A stretch of 64,000 nt of DNA, taken from positions 1-64,000 of the IMG/VR virus record IMGVR_UViG_3300028800_000081. One strand, given 5' to 3'. The first letter of the stretch is position 1; each line of letters opens with the position of its first letter. Below are positions 4,324-45,007 of the stretch, piece after piece. The stretch comes from a virus. The notes under the pieces were generated by a model. The model saw only the letters and a list, made by a program, of their open reading frames with translations. It was not told where the DNA came from and did not search any database. The position numbers and the translations under genes are program-made.

Positions 4324-6200
4324 CTATGAAGCGACTTCTATTTGCCGCGGCGCTTCTGTGCCCGCTTCCTGCGTTTGCGCAAGGCGGCGTCGGTCAGCCG
4401 GTGCAGATCCAGGATCCGACGACCCCGACGCAGAAGCTGAAGGTCAATTCCGATGGATCGATTCCTGTCACGGGATCGTTCTCAGCGTCTCTCGGCTCAT
4501 TTGCTCCTGGAGGCGCTTACGCCAATCTGACCGCAACAGGGTCGTCCGCGCGCGTTGCCCTTCCTGCCGGCCTCACCGTAGTGGCCTACAACAGTGGCAC
4601 CACGGCGGTTTCGTGCGTTCTCGGCAACGGGTCAGTCACGGCGGTTGCCAATGAGGATCAGATCGCGCCGGGCGGATTCTTTGCCTATGTCGTAGGATCG
4701 AATGTCGATCTCGCCTGTATCGACCAGACCGGCAGCGCGTCAAATGTCGTTGTCTTGTCCGGCGGCACAGGGTTGCCCGCGGGATCAGGCGGCGGAGGGG
4801 GAGGAGGCAGCGGCGGCACGGTAACGCAGGGATCGCCGCCTTGGTCCACGATCGACGGCGGAACGCTTCCGACGGGCGTCTCGCAGCCGACGGGCGGCGC
4901 TTCGTTGCTCGGCACGACCGGCCAGATCATGAAGGATCTCGATACGGCTGCTAGTCAAGCCAACACGCCTGTCGCGGGCCAAACGGCATCGGGAAGCGCC
5001 GGCGTGGCTCCGCCAGTGCTGATTGGCGGCACGCAGAATGCCGCGCAGACCGGCGTGGTTCAGAATCTCAAGATCGATTCCTCGGGTGAAGCTTCGATCA
5101 CGGCGGCGGCGTTGCCGCTCCCGACCGGCGCAATGCCTTCTTCGGGAGGATCTGTTACTGCGAACGCTGGGACAAATCTGAATACTTCCGCGCTTGAACT
5201 CGATACGACCGGCGCAACGGCAAACACGAACCTCGGCGCCCCTGGGGCCACGGCGTGCACGACGGACACCGCATCATGCTCACTTAATCAGCTTGCCCAG
5301 CGTCAGGCACAGCGGCTCACGACGATCAATACGACCCTCGGAACGCCGATGCAGGCGACGGGCGGCTCAGTCACAGCCAACGCCGGCACCAACCTCAACA
5401 CGTCGGCGCTCGCCACTGACGCGCATCTCACTCAGGCTCAGAGTGCCCCCGGGACGCCACAGACCCAAGCATTCACCATTCAAGGCAATTCGTCGGGCGT
5501 AGCGGTTCCGGTCACGAGCGGCGTTGCACAGGGTTCGACCACATCAGGTCAGACCGTTTCGCCCACGGGTTGCCGCACACTGACATCGGCTCCGACCGAC
5601 ACGACTGCGCAGACCAACATCCCTTGGTGCCGAACGAATGGCACTCAGGCGCAGGATTTGGCGTCGATCAACGGCACGACTGTTTTGGCGGGCACCGGCG
5701 CTGTCGGAACGGGGTCGCCTCGTGTTGCGGTCGGGACAGATACGGCAACAATCGCAGGGTCTTCCCCGACATCCCCCCTTGTCGCCGGAGGCATTGGAGC
5801 AACAGGGTCGGCACCACCTGCCAATGCCGTCTATCAAGGTGCGAACATAGGCGGCAATCTAACCGGGTTGGTCTCGTGCCAGAACTCCGTGATCTACGAC
5901 GCGTCTACAAACGGAGCAACGCAACTTGTTGCTCTCTCGTCCGGCAAGGTTGTCTACATCTGCGGCTACACGATATTCGCAGCAGGGACGGCAAACGTCG
6001 AACTCGACTATGGAACAGGTACGGCTTGTGCGACAGGTAACAACAAAATCACGCCGGCTTATCAGCTCACCGCCCAGACGGGTATCAGTGATCAGTCGCC
6101 ATATTATCGTGGACTGAATGCCATCGCGAGCAACGAGCTTTGCATCAAAACGAGTGCGGGCGTTGCGGTGCAGGCCGTCGTCTACTATTCGCAGTTCTGA
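4320..6200 (+). CDS. Secreted-looking repetitive fibre protein
   Basis: 626 residues. The N-terminus MTMKRLLFAAALLCPLPAFAQG is a textbook Sec signal peptide with an AFA-Q cleavage site. A Gly/Ser linker lies around residues 157-168. Two near-identical units (GGSVTANAGTNLNTSAL) recur in the middle, and the last 80 residues look globular and contain four cysteines. A signal peptide is unusual for a virion fibre. It is the first of five such genes in this region. The start at 4320 overlaps the previous stop; an in-frame ATG two codons later is also possible. Confidence 0.75.
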   Translation: MTMKRLLFAAALLCPLPAFAQGGVGQPVQIQDPTTPTQKLKVNSDGSIPVTGSFSASLGSFAPGGAYANLTATGSSARVALPAGLTVVAYNSGTTAVSCVLGNGSVTAVANEDQIAPGGFFAYVVGSNVDLACIDQTGSASNVVVLSGGTGLPAGSGGGGGGGSGGTVTQGSPPWSTIDGGTLPTGVSQPTGGASLLGTTGQIMKDLDTAASQANTPVAGQTASGSAGVAPPVLIGGTQNAAQTGVVQNLKIDSSGEASITAAALPLPTGAMPSSGGSVTANAGTNLNTSALELDTTGATANTNLGAPGATACTTDTASCSLNQLAQRQAQRLTTINTTLGTPMQATGGSVTANAGTNLNTSALATDAHLTQAQSAPGTPQTQAFTIQGNSSGVAVPVTSGVAQGSTTSGQTVSPTGCRTLTSAPTDTTAQTNIPWCRTNGTQAQDLASINGTTVLAGTGAVGTGSPRVAVGTDTATIAGSSPTSPLVAGGIGATGSAPPANAVYQGANIGGNLTGLVSCQNSVIYDASTNGATQLVALSSGKVVYICGYTIFAAGTANVELDYGTGTACATGNNKITPAYQLTAQTGISDQSPYYRGLNAIASNELCIKTSAGVAVQAVVYYSQF

Positions 6201-36112: not shown

Positions 36113-37302
36113 GCGAAGATCAACCAAAATTCGAATATCGGTACATCCAGACTCGTCCGTGCGAGTGGTCCGTTTTTTTGATTTTCGACGACGAGTCGAA
36201 CGTCTGGCGCCGCGTCGCCGTCTTTGTGAGTGAGGCGCGCGCGAAAAGCTACGCCGAAATCGAGCAGATGCGCGACGAGTGGGAAGGTGACAAGGGCGGC
36301 GAGGAAGGCGAACTGCTGTGCCAGATAACGGCGCGCGAACTCCCGGCCTCCCGCGTCACGCCTGATCGCATGATCCGCCGCGAGAGCATCGCGCACACCA
36401 GGATCGAACGTACCGAGGAAATCAGCCGAGCCGCTGTTGCGCTATTAACGCGCGAGGATCTCGCTGAGCTTCCCGCCGCGGTCATTGCGGAATTGAGCCC
36501 TGCCGCGCAGGCAGTTGCACTTTCACCCCCGGAACCTGCAATTGAGGCCACGCCTGTTGCTGTTAAAGGCAACACTCCAGAGCCGCCCGACGACGGCGCC
36601 GAGGAATATCCGCCCCTGCCAGAAGCGATCGACTGCGCGACGCTTGAGCCGCTGACGGCGCTTCAGTTCAAGGTGCTTTCCGCCGTCCTCATGACGCGCG
36701 GCGCGGAAACATCCGGCGTCGCCTTGGACAAGGCGTCGGGCGTCATTGGCGCGTCGACACACACTCTTTCGCTCGCGAAAAAAGGCTACATCAGAATCCG
36801 CAAGCTTGGAAAGCATCGCTACGCCTATGACGGCCTGACGTTCGGGGCCCCGCGCGTAGGCGTGTACGATTCGAAAGCTGGGAAATGCGTCGGAAAATAT
36901 GACGCGCCAGCCTCATTGCCTTCCAAAGCCGTTGAGCACCGACCTGCAGAGGTTGCAGCGGCTACCAAACCAGCGCAGAAATCAGAACCGGCGCGGGTCG
37001 CACCTATAAGTATCAGCCCCTCACCTGCAAGTAAGCCGTCTCACGCCCGCCCGACGCCTCCCAACGGCACACGCTTCCCCATCGCTGGCGACCCCGAGCA
37101 TGGCCGCAGCGCGCTCGACGCCGACGATGGCCGCATCCATGTCATCTCCTACCTGACGCGCAAGGGTCACACGGTGTCGCTGGCTGAAGGTGGCTGGCGG
37201 GTGGATGGGCGGATCAAGCGCGTCGACGAAGCACTGGAGTTGATCAACAGCTACCGCGCCAAGGCGGAACTTCCGCCCGCGCTCGCGAGCATGCTGGCAT
37301 GA
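36109..37302 (+). CDS. Replication-module protein with winged-helix-like centre
   Basis: 397 residues. N-terminal 50 residues look like a small beta protein (FLIFDDESNVWRRVAVFVSE). Residues about 180-240 (LTALQFKVLSAVLMTRGAET ... HTLSLAKKGYIRIRKLGKHR) suggest a winged helix. A Pro/Ala-rich linker and a helical end (DEALELINSYRAKAEL) follow. Just before DnaB, so an initiator or helicase-loader function is plausible by position. Confidence 0.6.
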   Translation: MSEDQPKFEYRYIQTRPCEWSVFLIFDDESNVWRRVAVFVSEARAKSYAEIEQMRDEWEGDKGGEEGELLCQITARELPASRVTPDRMIRRESIAHTRIERTEEISRAAVALLTREDLAELPAAVIAELSPAAQAVALSPPEPAIEATPVAVKGNTPEPPDDGAEEYPPLPEAIDCATLEPLTALQFKVLSAVLMTRGAETSGVALDKASGVIGASTHTLSLAKKGYIRIRKLGKHRYAYDGLTFGAPRVGVYDSKAGKCVGKYDAPASLPSKAVEHRPAEVAAATKPAQKSEPARVAPISISPSPASKPSHARPTPPNGTRFPIAGDPEHGRSALDADDGRIHVISYLTRKGHTVSLAEGGWRVDGRIKRVDEALELINSYRAKAELPPALASMLA

Positions 37303-38804
37303 ACAAGCCGGAGAAAGACTTCAGACGATCGCTGCCCTGTTCGATCGAGCTTGAACAGGCCGCCATCGGGGCCTGTTTGGTCGACAACCGGCTGATCGAA
37401 GTCCTCGCCGCCGACCTTGAGCCCGAAGCTTTGTTCGACCCGCTTCACCAGCGCATCTATGGGCTCATCCTCGCGCTCTCGGCCGAAGGCAAAGTCGACC
37501 CGCTGATCCTCAATTCCGTGATGGCGCACGATGACGGCCTCAAGATCGTCGGAGGCATCGGCTACCTCGCGAATCTCGCCCAGGCGGCACCGGCTCGCCC
37601 GAACGTCACGGAATACGCGCGCGCGCTCAAGGAACTCGCCCAACGCCGCCGGCTGATCGAGATAGGCGAATCGCTTCTTGACGACGCCTATGCGGCGACG
37701 GGCGATCGGTCCTCGGATGAACTCGTGACCCGCCACGCCGACGCGCTGCTCCGAATCGGGGAGGGGCGAAAGACCGGGACGAAGCACCTTGCCGACGTTG
37801 TCACGGCCAGCCTCACGCAAGCCGAGAAGCATCTGGCGGGCGAGAAGATTGCGGCCGTCGAGACAGGTATCGGCCCGTTTGATCGCGCCATAGGCGGCCT
37901 ACAGCCGGGCGACCGGGTAGCGATCGCGGCTCGCACCGGAATGGGCAAGAGTTTGACCGCCTCGGCAATCGCCAACGGACTGGCGCGGAATGGTGCACCG
38001 GTCTTCATCGCAAGCGGTGACATGCGGGCGAAGCAATGGGGCGATCGCGCGGCGTGCGACGTTGAGTCGTTCCTGCATCCAGGAGAGCCCTACATTTCGT
38101 ATTCGAAGTTCCGGGCCGGCCTGCTCTCTAACAAGGAAATCTATCGCCTGGCGCTCGCGCAACACGAGATGCAGGCATGGGCGATCGACATAGACGACAA
38201 TCCGACGATCAACGTGGCGACGTTCCGCGGCCGGGTGCGCGAGATGGCGCGGCGGTATCCGGGCCAGCAAGGCGTTGCGATCCTGGACTTCATCCAGAAG
38301 GTCAAGCCCGAGAAGGGCGGAAAGCGCGACCAGCGGCGCGACGAAGACCTGACGGAGATATCCTACGACCTCGGCGATATCTGTGGAGAACTCGGCTGGT
38401 CGCTGATTGCCTTGGTGCAGCTCAAGAACAAGGCGACCGACGCCAAGGGACAGCTTTCCGAGGCGCCGCCCAGCGTTGCCGATATCCGCGAATCGGGCGG
38501 GATCGAGATGGCCTTCGACATCATCGTCAGCCCGTTCCGCAAGGCGTTTTTCATCGAGCGCCGTGAGCCTGAAGGCAAGCACAACGCCGGCGGCCCGCCG
38601 CCTGAATGGATCTCGTGGAACGCCGAAATGGCGGAGCATCGGAACAAGCTTCGCCTGCTCGGGTGGAAGAATCGGGACGGCAACGCGGCGGTGCTCAATC
38701 TCGATCTGTGGTGCAACCCCGCGACCGCGACGGTCTGCGAATACGCGCCGGAACGCAGCACGCAACAGACAGCCGACCTTCTGGCGTTCGGAGCGCCGGG
38801 GTGA
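37299..38804 (+). CDS. dnaB: DnaB-like replicative helicase
   Basis: 501 residues. N-terminal DnaB domain (LEQAAIGACLVDNRLIEVLA; GIGYLANLAQAAP), then the RecA-like motor: Walker A ARTGMGKS at about 211-218, Walker B VAILDFIQ, and arginine-rich C-terminal region. Unwinds DNA at the phage fork as a ring hexamer. ATGA overlap with the upstream gene, GTGA overlap with the methyltransferase. Length is normal for DnaB. Confidence 0.92.
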   Translation: MNKPEKDFRRSLPCSIELEQAAIGACLVDNRLIEVLAADLEPEALFDPLHQRIYGLILALSAEGKVDPLILNSVMAHDDGLKIVGGIGYLANLAQAAPARPNVTEYARALKELAQRRRLIEIGESLLDDAYAATGDRSSDELVTRHADALLRIGEGRKTGTKHLADVVTASLTQAEKHLAGEKIAAVETGIGPFDRAIGGLQPGDRVAIAARTGMGKSLTASAIANGLARNGAPVFIASGDMRAKQWGDRAACDVESFLHPGEPYISYSKFRAGLLSNKEIYRLALAQHEMQAWAIDIDDNPTINVATFRGRVREMARRYPGQQGVAILDFIQKVKPEKGGKRDQRRDEDLTEISYDLGDICGELGWSLIALVQLKNKATDAKGQLSEAPPSVADIRESGGIEMAFDIIVSPFRKAFFIERREPEGKHNAGGPPPEWISWNAEMAEHRNKLRLLGWKNRDGNAAVLNLDLWCNPATATVCEYAPERSTQQTADLLAFGAPG

Positions 38805-39841
38805 GCGCCTACTACAATGAAATCGACCCCTATGCAGCACAATGGCTGCGCAACCTTATTGCTGCGGGACACATTGCCGATGGTGAAGTTGACGAACGAT
38901 CAATCATCGACGTTCCCGCCGCCGATCTCCGCGACTTCACGCAATGCCATTTCTTCGCTGGAATCGGCGGGTGGTCTGTCGCACTCAGGCTCGCAGGATG
39001 GCCCGATGATCGACCTGTTTGGACAGGAAGTTGCCCCTGCCAGCCCTTTAGCGCCGCCGGAGCGGGCAAGGCGGCCGATGACAGCCGTCACCTGTGGCCT
39101 GCGTGGTTTTCTCTCATCTCCGTCGCACGCCCTGCAATCGTCTTTGGAGAGCAGGTTGAAGCGGCAATTGGATGGGGTTGGCTCGACGCTGTTTTCGCTG
39201 ACATGGAAGGCGCGGGCTACGCCTGCGGGGCGTCCGTACTTCCAGCTTGTGGCATCGGCGCGCCGCACATCAGACAGCGAACTTGGTTCGTGGCCGACGC
39301 CAATGGCGGGGACGCCGGCGCAGCGGGGCTACAACGAAGCGGGGAACACGGACAGCGGGCGCAAGACGGTCGCGCTGGTGAGTTCCTGGCCGACTCCGCG
39401 CGCGGAAGACAGCGAGAGTTCGGGAATGCGTCACGGCCGCGGAGTGGCGGACACTCTGACGGCGGTATCGAGCCTAGCGGCTTGGACAACCCCGCAAGCG
39501 CACGACACGCACAAGCGCGGCGCGGGGAATCGCCTCAATCCGAAGGGCGGCGGGGGATGTTTGGCGTCGGAAGCGATCCTCGCGAGTTGGGCGACACCAA
39601 CGGCGGACGACGCGGACAATGTGACGAGGGCGAGCGGCCAATATCAATCGCTAACGCGACAGGCGATGACGCTTGGTCAAATCTCGAATGGCTCGCCTGC
39701 ACAGACGGAAGATCGCGGCCAGTTGAGCCCGGGACATTCCCGCTGGCTCATGGGATACAGCGTCGAACATCTAAGCTGCGCGCCTACGGCAATGCCATCG
39801 TCCCGCAAGTCGCGGCGGAGTTCATAAAGGCGTTCGCGTGA
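38801..39841 (+). CDS. C5-cytosine DNA methyltransferase
   Basis: 346 residues from a GTG overlapping the helicase stop. FFAGIGGWS (motif I, about 51-59), PCQPFS with catalytic Cys80 (motif IV), GEQVEA replacing the usual ENV motif VI as in many phage enzymes, GAPHIRQRTWFVADA (motif VIII region), and a C-terminal RAYGNAIVPQVAAEF (motif X). Methylates cytosines, probably to escape restriction. A Gly/Arg/Asp-rich middle of about 120 residues is overprinted by another frame (39006-39827). Confidence 0.9.
   Translation: MSAYYNEIDPYAAQWLRNLIAAGHIADGEVDERSIIDVPAADLRDFTQCHFFAGIGGWSVALRLAGWPDDRPVWTGSCPCQPFSAAGAGKAADDSRHLWPAWFSLISVARPAIVFGEQVEAAIGWGWLDAVFADMEGAGYACGASVLPACGIGAPHIRQRTWFVADANGGDAGAAGLQRSGEHGQRAQDGRAGEFLADSARGRQREFGNASRPRSGGHSDGGIEPSGLDNPASARHAQARRGESPQSEGRRGMFGVGSDPRELGDTNGGRRGQCDEGERPISIANATGDDAWSNLEWLACTDGRSRPVEPGTFPLAHGIQRRTSKLRAYGNAIVPQVAAEFIKAFA
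39006..39827 (+). CDS. SWPTP-repeat protein overprinted on the methyltransferase
   Basis: 273 residues in the +2 frame inside the methyltransferase gene. N-terminus MIDLFGQEVAPASPLAPPER, then LQSSLESRLKRQL and GSTLFSLTWKARATPAGRPY, then four W-x-T-P units (SWPTPMAG, SWPTPRAE, AWTTPQAH, SWATPTAD). This whole arrangement matches a recurrent phage protein family I know from many genomes, always near cytosine methyltransferases. The frame has no stop for over 1 kb. Function unknown. The two frames share the same repeat DNA, so both are probably real. Confidence 0.75.
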   Translation: MIDLFGQEVAPASPLAPPERARRPMTAVTCGLRGFLSSPSHALQSSLESRLKRQLDGVGSTLFSLTWKARATPAGRPYFQLVASARRTSDSELGSWPTPMAGTPAQRGYNEAGNTDSGRKTVALVSSWPTPRAEDSESSGMRHGRGVADTLTAVSSLAAWTTPQAHDTHKRGAGNRLNPKGGGGCLASEAILASWATPTADDADNVTRASGQYQSLTRQAMTLGQISNGSPAQTEDRGQLSPGHSRWLMGYSVEHLSCAPTAMPSSRKSRRSS

Positions 39842-42250: not shown

Positions 42251-42834
42251 TGGACGACACGCAATTCGCCAACGGCCTGCTCGAATTGTGGACGGCTCAC
42301 GACACAGCCGGGTCACGAACCTACATCGCATCGAACGGCGGCATGTCTCGTGTCATTGCCCTCGCTGTCCGCGGCGCCGTGCGGGCAAAGCGTGATGCGA
42401 CCAAGACCGCGAAGGGCACGCCGCTGTCTGCGGACTTCCCGGACCGAATCGCCCTCGACAACGCCCTCGAATACTGGCGCAAGCACAAGCGGCCCGACAT
42501 CTGCCTGAAGATCGAAGAGGTCTCGGATCACTTCCGCCGTCACCACGCGGAGCACAAGGCGCTGAGCTGGCCCCGCACCTGGGCGACGTGGTACTGCAAT
42601 CAGATCAATTTTATCCGCGCGCCGGCGTCGATGCAGACCGCAACCGTCATTCCCATCAACGGCACGCCGCAAGAGTGGGCGAATCGGGTGCGGATTTGGG
42701 ACGGCACGAGCGGCGACGCTGACCTTCCGCCCGGCACATGGTCGGACAAATGGGGCCCGAAGCCCGGCGAGCCCGGTTGCCGAGTCCCGGACGAAGCGTA
42801 TGGTCTGGCGAGACCGAAAGCAGCGAGGGCGTGA
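42250..42834 (+). CDS. Replication accessory-like protein
   Basis: 194 residues. FPDRIALDNALEYWRKHKRP and FRRHHAEHKALSWPRTWATW resemble the C-terminal helicase-interacting module of phage replication initiators (F..HH ... W...W). ATGA overlap at its start. Possibly a helicase loader or primosome helper. Confidence 0.6.
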   Translation: MDDTQFANGLLELWTAHDTAGSRTYIASNGGMSRVIALAVRGAVRAKRDATKTAKGTPLSADFPDRIALDNALEYWRKHKRPDICLKIEEVSDHFRRHHAEHKALSWPRTWATWYCNQINFIRAPASMQTATVIPINGTPQEWANRVRIWDGTSGDADLPPGTWSDKWGPKPGEPGCRVPDEAYGLARPKAARA

Positions 42835-43628
42835 TGGGTGAGAGAACCGAAATTTCATGGGCGGACAGCACGTTCAATCCGGTCGTGGGATGCACGAAGG
42901 TGAGCGCGGCATGCGATCATTGCTACGCGGAATCTTGGGCCAAGCGGGCCGGTCAGCCGGAGTTGTGGCAGGGCGAACGCCGCCGCACGACGCCTGAGAA
43001 CTGGCGCAAGCCTCTGAAGTGGGATCGCGATGCCGCGCTGTCGGGGCGCCGACCGCGCGTGTTCTGCGCTTCGCTGTCGGATGTGTTCGACAATCAGTGG
43101 GAACCAGAATGGCGTAGAGACCTGTGGCAACTGATAGCCGAGACACCGCATCTCGATTGGCTGTTGTTGACGAAGCGGCCGCAGAACATCGCGAAAATGC
43201 TTCCGAGCGGCGACCTCGCAAAATTCCTCCCGTGGCCGTGGCCGAATGTTTGGCTCGGCACGACGGCAGAAAATCAGACTGAGGCTAACAGGCGGGTGCC
43301 GCACCTCGTCGCAGTTCCTGCGGCCGTCCGGTTCCTCTCATGCGAGCCGCTGCTCGGACCGATCAATCTCGCACTGGCGGGATTGGAGGTATGCTTGAAC
43401 GACTTCGACACGCCATGCACGACGAACATTTCGTGGGTGATTTCAGGCGGGGAGAGTGGGTCGCATCATCGCCAAACGGACCCCGCGTGGATCCGGTCGT
43501 TGCGCGATCAGTGCTACGCTGTGGACATTGCGTTCCATCACAAACAGAACGGCGGCAAACGGCCGAAAGATGGCGGATGTTTGCTCGACGGTCGCGAGCA
43601 CAAAGAGTTTCCGAGGATGGCAGCGTAA
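42834..43628 (+). CDS. DUF5131 / phage Gp37-Gp68 family protein
   Basis: 264 residues. The opening TEISWADSTFNPVVGCTKVS-AACDHCYAE is the signature of this family, with Cys residues like a radical-SAM iron-sulfur site (C-x6-C-x2-C). Later FCASLSDVFD, LLTKRP and WVISGGESG are its usual blocks. The biochemical role in phages is unsettled. ATGA overlaps at both ends. Confidence 0.88.
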   Translation: MGERTEISWADSTFNPVVGCTKVSAACDHCYAESWAKRAGQPELWQGERRRTTPENWRKPLKWDRDAALSGRRPRVFCASLSDVFDNQWEPEWRRDLWQLIAETPHLDWLLLTKRPQNIAKMLPSGDLAKFLPWPWPNVWLGTTAENQTEANRRVPHLVAVPAAVRFLSCEPLLGPINLALAGLEVCLNDFDTPCTTNISWVISGGESGSHHRQTDPAWIRSLRDQCYAVDIAFHHKQNGGKRPKDGGCLLDGREHKEFPRMAA

Positions 43629-45007
43629 TGGCAAAGGTTGGAACACGAGCGGCCCCGAAGCTCCCCGCGCAGGCGAACGGCAAGCCGCTCGAGATCGTGT
43701 ACCGCGATCCGAAGGAACTGAAGCCGGATGCGAGAAATTCTCGTGTCCATAGTCCCGAGCAAATTGAACAACTCAGGGCCTCGTATCGACGCTTCGGATG
43801 GACGTCGCCGGTCTTGCTTCGTCCTGACGGTTCAATCGGTGCCGGTCACGCTCGCGTGCGCATGGCGATCCTCGAAAAGATCAAATCCGTCCCCACCGTC
43901 ACGATCGACCTCACCGAGAAGCAATGGCGCGCGTACGCAATTGTGGACAACCAGTCCGCACTCAATGCTTCTTACGATCTCGACATTCTCCGCACCGAAC
44001 TCGACGAGCTAAACGGCGACTTCAACCTAATCGAGGAAATGGGCTTTTCACTCGACGAACTCGCGGACCTCGAAGTCCCAGGATTCACGCTCGACGAAAC
44101 AAACGAGCGCGCCGAAGAGACGCCGCCTGTTCCTGCAAATCCGGTCGTGAAGCGCGGCGAGCTTTGGCTGCTCGGGAAGCATCGTGTGCTATGCGGCGAC
44201 TCGACGAAGGCTGACGACGTGGCGCGGCCTCTCAACGGCGCGAAGCCGCATCTGATGGTCACCGATCCGCCGTATGGCGTGAACTACGATGCCGACTGGC
44301 GCAATCGCGCCGACAGAGCAAACGGGCGTCCCTACGGCGCTCGCGCGGTAGGGAAAGTGACGAACGACAACCGATCCGATTGGCGCGAAGCGTGGGCGCT
44401 CTGCCCTTCCGACGTAATTTATGTTTGGCACCCGGCGGGTGCCAAACAGGTGGAATTTTTCCACAGCATCGTCGATTCTGCATTCGAATTTCGAATGCAG
44501 ATCATCTGGGCGAAGCAACAATTCCCAATCGGCAGAGGCGACTATCACGTCAAGCACGAACCTTGCTGGTACGCGGTGCGCAAAGGCAAGACCGCGCACT
44601 GGAACGGGAGTCGCACAGAGTCGACGCTGTGGGAGATCGACAAGCCGCACAAATCAGAAACGGGGCACTCGACACAGAAACCGATTGAGTGCATGCGCAA
44701 GCCCATCCTAAACAATTCGAAGCCCGGAGATTCCGTCTACGACCCGTTCCTCGGCTCTGGAACAACGCTCATCGCAGCCGAGATGGAGAAGCGCATCTGT
44801 CTAGGAATTGAGATCGCGCCAGAATATGTCGAGGTCATCATCCGACGCTGGGAAAAGTTCACATCCAAAACTGCGAAACGCGAAGACGGCGCAACGCTTG
44901 AAGACCTTCTCGACGCCAGAACGGCTGGTAAGGCTGTGGCTGGCATCGCGACCGGCAAGACGAAGCTCGTCCGTGGCAAGCGGCTCGCCAAGGCTCTGGC
45001 GACGTGA
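43628..45007 (+). CDS. ParB-like domain fused to a DNA methyltransferase
   Basis: 459 residues. N-terminal ParB-type domain (LKPDARNSRVHSPEQIEQLR and GSIGAGHARV), then a beta-class amino-methyltransferase: DPPYG at 213-217 followed much later by FLGSGTT near 374-380 and a GIEIAPEYVEV end. Methylates adenine N6 or cytosine N4. Together with the C5 enzyme it gives the phage two kinds of methylation. The start overlaps the preceding stop. Confidence 0.9.
   Translation: MAKVGTRAAPKLPAQANGKPLEIVYRDPKELKPDARNSRVHSPEQIEQLRASYRRFGWTSPVLLRPDGSIGAGHARVRMAILEKIKSVPTVTIDLTEKQWRAYAIVDNQSALNASYDLDILRTELDELNGDFNLIEEMGFSLDELADLEVPGFTLDETNERAEETPPVPANPVVKRGELWLLGKHRVLCGDSTKADDVARPLNGAKPHLMVTDPPYGVNYDADWRNRADRANGRPYGARAVGKVTNDNRSDWREAWALCPSDVIYVWHPAGAKQVEFFHSIVDSAFEFRMQIIWAKQQFPIGRGDYHVKHEPCWYAVRKGKTAHWNGSRTESTLWEIDKPHKSETGHSTQKPIECMRKPILNNSKPGDSVYDPFLGSGTTLIAAEMEKRICLGIEIAPEYVEVIIRRWEKFTSKTAKREDGATLEDLLDARTAGKAVAGIATGKTKLVRGKRLAKALAT

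Follow-up and report, generated by a model that had tools for sequence, protein, structure and literature searches.

The viral DNA analysed here, a window of 64,000 nucleotides from a virus record of 73,132 bases, contains two long proteins read from the same strand in different frames, which are probably two parts of one enzyme. We put at roughly 0.83 the probability that the outer frame, alpha, encodes the catalytic subunit of a split C5-cytosine DNA methyltransferase and that the frame nested within it, beta, encodes its recognition and motif IX subunit, so that one stretch of DNA would encode both subunits. Alpha (frame 0) would supply the S-adenosylmethionine and catalytic motifs I-VIII, plus motif X. 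Beta (frame +1), with its own start codon inside alpha, would provide the target-recognition small domain, made up of a structured N-terminal hairpin, an array of W-x-T-P units and motif IX. The two chains would assemble on DNA, and alpha without beta should fail in target recognition. The parts of the locus in the window are as follows.

37299-38804, + strand: DnaB-like helicase gene, upstream (Pfam DnaB_C, 3e-35)
38801-39841, + strand: alpha, C5-cytosine methyltransferase frame; 346 aa, GTG start, stop at 39841; motifs I, IV, VI-like, VIII and X
38951-38971, + strand: alpha motif I (FFAGIGG), upstream of the proposed beta start
38995-38998, + strand: AGGA, Shine-Dalgarno-like by consensus match only, 7 nt before ATG 39006
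39006-39827, + strand: beta, nested +1 frame protein of 273 aa; ATG at 39006, stop at 39827; W-x-T-P array and motif IX; phrog_1008 match, 3e-29
39035-39049, + strand: alpha motif IV (PCQPF, catalytic Cys), aligned to M.HhaI
39146-39157, + strand: alpha motif VI-like; GEQV replaces the usual ENV
39189-39272, + strand: beta conserved hairpin LFSLTWKARATPAGRPYFQLVASARRTS; best-folded part of beta, alpha-silent changes suppressed
39266-39280, + strand: alpha motif VIII (HIRQR)
39291-39302, + strand: W-x-T-P unit 1; beta SWPTP, alpha VADAN
39338-39652, + strand: alpha residues 180-284, the variable region; near-neutral in the alpha frame, predicted unfolded
39387-39398, + strand: W-x-T-P unit 2; beta SWPTP, alpha LADSA
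39483-39494, + strand: W-x-T-P unit 3; beta AWTTP, alpha LDNPA
39588-39599, + strand: W-x-T-P unit 4; beta SWATP, alpha LGDTN
39720-39779, + strand: beta motif IX (QLSPGHSRWLMGYSVEHLSC); hhalign match to canonical C5-methyltransferase motif IX, equalled by 0/200 shuffles
39788-39808, + strand: alpha motif X (GNAIVPQ)

Both frames lie at 38801-39841 and 39006-39827, exactly where a sequence-only reading of the window had placed them, and the four W-x-T-P units of beta are indeed the VADAN, LADSA, LDNPA and LGDTN segments of alpha, as it had proposed. The stop of the helicase gene overlaps the GTG start of alpha, and the +1 frame around beta is open for 340 codons in all. Alpha matches phrog_363 (2e-81), Pfam DNA_methylase (2.4e-14) and, by Foldseek, M.HhaI (1.7e-7); PHROGs labels both phrog_363 and phrog_1008 'DNA methyltransferase'. 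Across the family, W-x-T-P arrays mostly comprise 2-5 units per protein, spaced about 36 residues apart. Further downstream, a DUF5131 gene occupies 42738-43628 of the window, and the ORF at 43340-45007 encodes an N6/N4 methylase that shows a weak ParB-like match; these two ORFs overlap by 289 nt, and the start of the second has probably been set too early.

Conservation of the nested frame

Many of the homologs have a G+C content of 60-68%, at which long spurious frames are common, and the nested frame could in principle be a by-product of GC-rich coding DNA. However, when the synonymous codons of the window alpha were permuted, the longest open +1 run averaged 179 codons, compared with the 340 observed (P = 0.0006), and the same permutation revealed no open-run excess in the +2 frame. 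When applied to six phages of 47-56% GC (Redbud, R9.1, Lc-Nu, C72C1, N15 and K1ind2), it gave P values between 0.0002 and 0.0066. Among 120 distinct homologs, the nested frame contained 0.74 stops per 100 codons, mostly near both ends, as against 3.8 in the +2 frame and 1.25-2.5 on the other strand. Additionally, homology links the nested frames across phyla, those of the Firmicutes phages Redbud, R9.1, C72C1 and Lc-Nu aligning with those of proteobacterial phages (hhalign E 5e-24, probability 99.6). A chance open frame was ruled out by the permutation, the stop density and the asymmetry of substitution rates described below; a compositional origin is scarcely credible, and we regard the dual coding as virtually certain.

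Both profiles were present in 292/292 loci, with beta always at +1. These comprise 80 viral loci retrieved via beta, 80 via alpha and 46 via the K1ind2 alpha, together with 80 genome loci (beta profile) and phage records; the 80 loci retrieved with the alpha query alone also carry beta. No homolog that keeps one frame while the other is broken was found among the 292 intact loci, nor was a stand-alone beta, and in one locus (L283) a single indel shifts the alpha and beta frames together. In a second sample of 299 whole genomes, evenly drawn from one phylum and searched with each profile separately, every retrieved alpha-family locus again had beta at +1. The same genomes contain 14 canonical C5-methyltransferases, which match alpha in the conserved core only (below about 57 bits) and in which beta was absent or present as scraps below 15 bits. 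Since these 14 enzymes lack a convincing beta, it is the alpha family that beta accompanies, and not C5-methyltransferases generally. One beta-like match without alpha in the genome sample (L337, genome G198) was set aside, as it scored 23 bits and contained stops.

The overlap occurs in phages of at least four phyla, Proteobacteria, Firmicutes, Bacteroidetes (the nested frame is also found in Bacteroides phage BKO1-TP3) and Actinobacteria. It is ancient and widespread, not a rare local event, and on this point the sequence-only reading needs correcting. In annotation the two proteins are usually entered separately, or one is missed; the K1ind2 and Redbud ('g50 internal gene') records annotate both frames, unlinked.

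Several loci have an unusual organisation. One viral contig carries tandem alpha/beta copies (L002:2805-3785 and 4900-5877), both with the nested frame and about 49-63% alike to the window. In EBPR siphovirus 2 gp44 (L298:1136-3631), alpha motif IV is interrupted between PC and QPF by an intein-like insert that keeps the frame; since the beta profile resumes past the insert, the beta start is probably downstream of it. In Komagataeibacter phage phiKX1 (L163:1700-3289) an insertion of about 400 bp splits the common C-terminus of alpha and beta. In Paenibacillus phages Lily and Harrison (H275, H286) the match to Redbud gp51 is limited to the first 108-113 beta residues; their repeat region has been replaced, which points to a swap of the recognition part in both frames at once.

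Selection and predicted structure in the two frames

Rates were estimated from 35 independent pairs, with each possible change classed by what it does in either frame. In the variable region, dNN/dNS was 0.16 (0.12-0.21) for beta and 0.74 (0.57-0.95) for alpha, so that the methyltransferase frame is nearly unconstrained across the repeats and the nested frame is constrained. A sham +1 frame in flanking genes gave 0.63 (0.47-0.81); this control may include some wrongly chosen shadow frames (the L133/L136 pair shows an inverted pattern) and is thus conservative. In the first 60-odd codons of alpha, before the proposed beta start, the nested-frame dNN/dNS was 0.82 and the alpha-silent rate (dSN) 0.42. 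The proposal that the same DNA is dual-coded is therefore borne out by conservation of both frames and by purifying selection on the nested one, which is strong in the variable region.

The asymmetry between the frames also shows in the individual classes of change. In the variable region, changes that alter alpha but are silent in beta occurred at 0.33 per site, versus 0.07 for those silent in alpha and altering beta, and this inversion was found in 42/47 pairs. Alpha-silent changes ran at 0.34-0.47 per site before the overlap, mostly at 0.08-0.30 in the catalytic stretch and at 0.03-0.08 under most of the repeats and motif IX, rising again to 0.2-0.44 at motif X. The nested frame has a dNN/dNS of 0.52 over the catalytic stretch, which overlaps with the control from flanking genes, and it is the loss of alpha-silent changes alone that is clear there (42/50 pairs, p 3e-10). 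The window and its nearest relatives (L002-L005) show the same direction of rates, at few sites. Since the rates are inverted in the variable region, the methyltransferase frame under the repeats amounts to hardly more than a shadow of the nested frame. The 'variable region' of alpha is thus largely a shadow of beta, and beta dominates selection there.

In the AlphaFold2 model, residues 1-170 of alpha and its end at motif X are folded, and the alpha fold matched M.HhaI in Foldseek. In contrast, residues 180-284 were left unfolded (pLDDT about 42), with no secondary structure. The AlphaFold2 model and the near-neutral evolution of this segment both indicate that a folded recognition region between motifs VIII and IX is absent from alpha. 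These results bear on a different explanation, in which alpha is self-sufficient, its variable region being a fast-evolving recognition domain, and beta modifies specificity as an additional subunit. The alpha frame does remain open and retains motif X, and a predicted recognition domain has been assigned to the large subunit of M.EcoHK31I (PMC3404938). However, not only is the variable region unfolded in the model, but its rate of alpha-altering, beta-silent change (0.33 per site) is near the silent rate elsewhere (0.42), and those silent in alpha are less frequent there by a factor of four to five. That combination argues that diversifying selection on alpha is not the cause, and we consider a self-sufficient alpha very improbable.

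Beta alone was modelled poorly (pLDDT 61, pTM 0.29), the better-modelled parts being a helix-hairpin at residues 39-85 and the motif IX helix, and a Foldseek search of the beta model against the PDB found no methyltransferase. A chain that depends on a partner would be expected to model poorly, although this is not evidence by itself.

Motif content and proposed start of the nested frame

Alpha contains motifs I, IV and VIII in order, with the catalytic PC present and GEQV as motif VI. The sequence-only reading had taken it for a complete C5-cytosine methyltransferase. It is a methyltransferase, as judged by motifs I, IV, VI-like, VIII and X, but it is not complete, since motif IX lies in the nested frame. 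As Pfam assigned no family to the actinophage betas, motif IX was sought with a IX-X profile built from the canonical methyltransferases of the 299-genome sample. With alpha, this profile aligned at motif X only, and motif IX was not found in the same chain. With the nested beta it aligned at motif IX only, at LNPxHSRWLMGLPPEW, with a score of 22.5; the match is short (hhalign probability 28%), yet it lies above every one of 200 column shuffles, the best of which reached 16.1. We conclude from this alignment that beta carries motif IX, which in known structures is part of the small, DNA-recognising domain (PMC3404938). The window copy is divergent here, with GYSVEH for GLPPEW, a trait of its subclade. 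In that subclade (the window with L002-L005) the end of motif IX reads GYxxEHLSC for GLPPEWDxC, and alpha has a matching change, RRTSK for ARVGR.

The actinophages divide the enzyme at a different point. In GordTnk2, NotAPhaseMom, CloudWang3 and KBurrousTX, alpha stops right after motif VIII and the overlapping +1 frame continues via PTP repeats to motifs IX and X (alpha/beta pairs gp78/77 and gp91/90). The canonical IX-X profile aligned to the actinophage beta at both motifs (E 5e-9, probability 96); a PDB search with the actinophage IX-X segment was uninformative. Furthermore, alpha and beta are fused in a single frame in ShiLan gp70, Ramsey gp69, MelBins gp5 and Gudmit gp58. Since beta has motif IX, and the actinophage beta also has motif X or is fused to alpha, a natural split C5-methyltransferase is the most likely explanation.

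The beta family gave no credible Pfam or NCBIfam match and no PDB sequence match, and W-x-T-P repeats have no known fold. Beta might therefore be a genuine overprinted protein that has nothing to do with methylation and acts, for example, in anti-restriction or regulation. Such a function would not account for the C-terminal motif IX, the actinophage fusions, the motif X of the actinophage beta or the constant co-occurrence of beta with alpha, and we judge it quite unlikely. Thus, where overprinting had been suggested, a second selected frame is indeed present, but rather than an unrelated protein it is most likely the recognition and motif IX subunit of the same enzyme.

A further indication comes from the codons around the proposed start of beta. 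At codons 33-38, 162 alphas read R-S-x-x-D-V. Among these homologs, the Asp is encoded by GAT in 76%, versus 37% elsewhere in these genes (p 1e-23), the Arg by AGG in 40%, versus 8% (p 2e-28), and the Ser by AGC or AGT in 70%, versus 46%. The favoured silent codons of alpha spell AGGAGC...GATG, that is, a Shine-Dalgarno sequence and an ATG in the beta frame; a Shine-Dalgarno-like motif and the ATG are both present in 92/162. This bias indirectly supports the view that beta is translated from a start of its own. The window copy lacks the family's usual start, having CGA TCA ATC ATC GAC GTT at alpha codons 33-38. Its beta would start at the later ATG 39006, preceded by a weak AGGA. The lost start is the weakest point for the window copy itself.

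The missing start in the window would be less of a difficulty if ribosomes reading alpha moved into the beta frame by programmed frameshifting and so made a chimeric methyltransferase of a catalytic half and a W-x-T-P/motif IX half, and the in-frame actinophage fusions are of just this kind. Against this, synonymous codon usage in alpha favours a Shine-Dalgarno sequence and an ATG in the beta frame. Moreover, a frameshift after motif VIII would skip the N-terminal half of beta, under the catalytic motifs, yet that half is itself constrained. Frameshifting is therefore unlikely. Returning to the two-subunit enzyme, we infer that beta would be translated from the window copy, bind alpha and set the sequence specificity, and that the enzyme may protect or mark phage DNA.

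It is possible, although we hold this only tentatively and think it somewhat improbable, that beta is a modular recognition subunit in which each W-x-T-P unit helps to read the target, and that gain, loss or swapping of units in beta rewrites the methylation specificity. If so, the variable region of alpha would be an almost meaningless translation of the W-x-T-P units, carried along because the alpha frame must stay open to motif X, and a large family of phage methyltransferases would have its specificity in the frame that annotation usually discards.

Comparison with known systems

The closest parallel is M.EcoHK31I, a two-polypeptide C5-methyltransferase with the site YGGCCR, whose beta frame was reportedly found by Lee, Kam and Shaw in 1995 to be nested in alpha in another frame; nesting of the small-subunit gene in another frame was likewise observed here, in 292/292 loci at +1. 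Judged from the published description, the motif split is also the same as in the window: the large subunit of M.EcoHK31I contains motifs I-VIII and X, along with a predicted recognition domain, and the small subunit motif IX alone (PMC3404938). The systems nevertheless differ in several respects. M.EcoHK31I is part of a restriction-modification system, whereas the window pair is a phage gene adjoining a DnaB-like helicase. The W-x-T-P array is a feature of the window beta, and selection places the recognition region in beta here, not in the large subunit. What is new beyond M.EcoHK31I is therefore the spread through phages of multiple phyla, the W-x-T-P array and a variable region that is mostly a shadow of beta. 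A search for an EaeI/EcoHK31I-like restriction system on plasmids yielded a Klebsiella aerogenes match, which was dropped since it lay among phage recombination genes and had frame breaks.

In M.AquI, too, the catalytic part and the recognition/motif IX part are on two chains (PMC3404938). The window differs from it, in that M.AquI has motif X together with motif IX in the small subunit and its chains divide the variable region; the pairs of GordTnk2, NotAPhaseMom and CloudWang3 resemble AquI.

The families matched by the window alpha and beta, phrog_363 and phrog_1008, are two separate PHROGs entries. Nowhere did we find it stated that a single stretch of DNA encodes both in two frames, and literature searches found no paper describing the alpha/beta overlap in phages. 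A homologous pair is annotated in Paenibacillus phage Redbud, a low-GC Firmicutes phage, where gp51 lies inside gp50 at +1 and is entered without a function. In lambda Rz/Rz1, too, one phage gene (the embedded spanin gene) lies wholly inside another in an alternative frame, a nesting mentioned in PMC9409062. The two lambda proteins act in a single complex; they are unrelated to the window pair, and their overlap is much shorter.

Long same-strand dual coding that is conserved across phages of several bacterial phyla is rare. The two chains here look like the halves of a single enzyme, and so their joint production may be aided by the overlap itself. The arrangement also makes predictions of specificity testable for a large class of phage methyltransferases, with the recognition region to be read in the beta frame and not in alpha. 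One frame is nearly neutral here and the other strongly selected, which makes the locus a clean natural benchmark for programs that look for overlapping genes. Where an annotation pipeline keeps a single frame of an overlapping pair, the recognition subunit is lost, or else the catalytic one. The latter is seen in Stenotrophomonas phage SOVA965 (L295:2484-2984), in which the beta frame alone is annotated, as 'DNA-cytosine methyltransferase', and the true alpha frame is unannotated; its beta has a single PTP unit and is possibly a minimal version.
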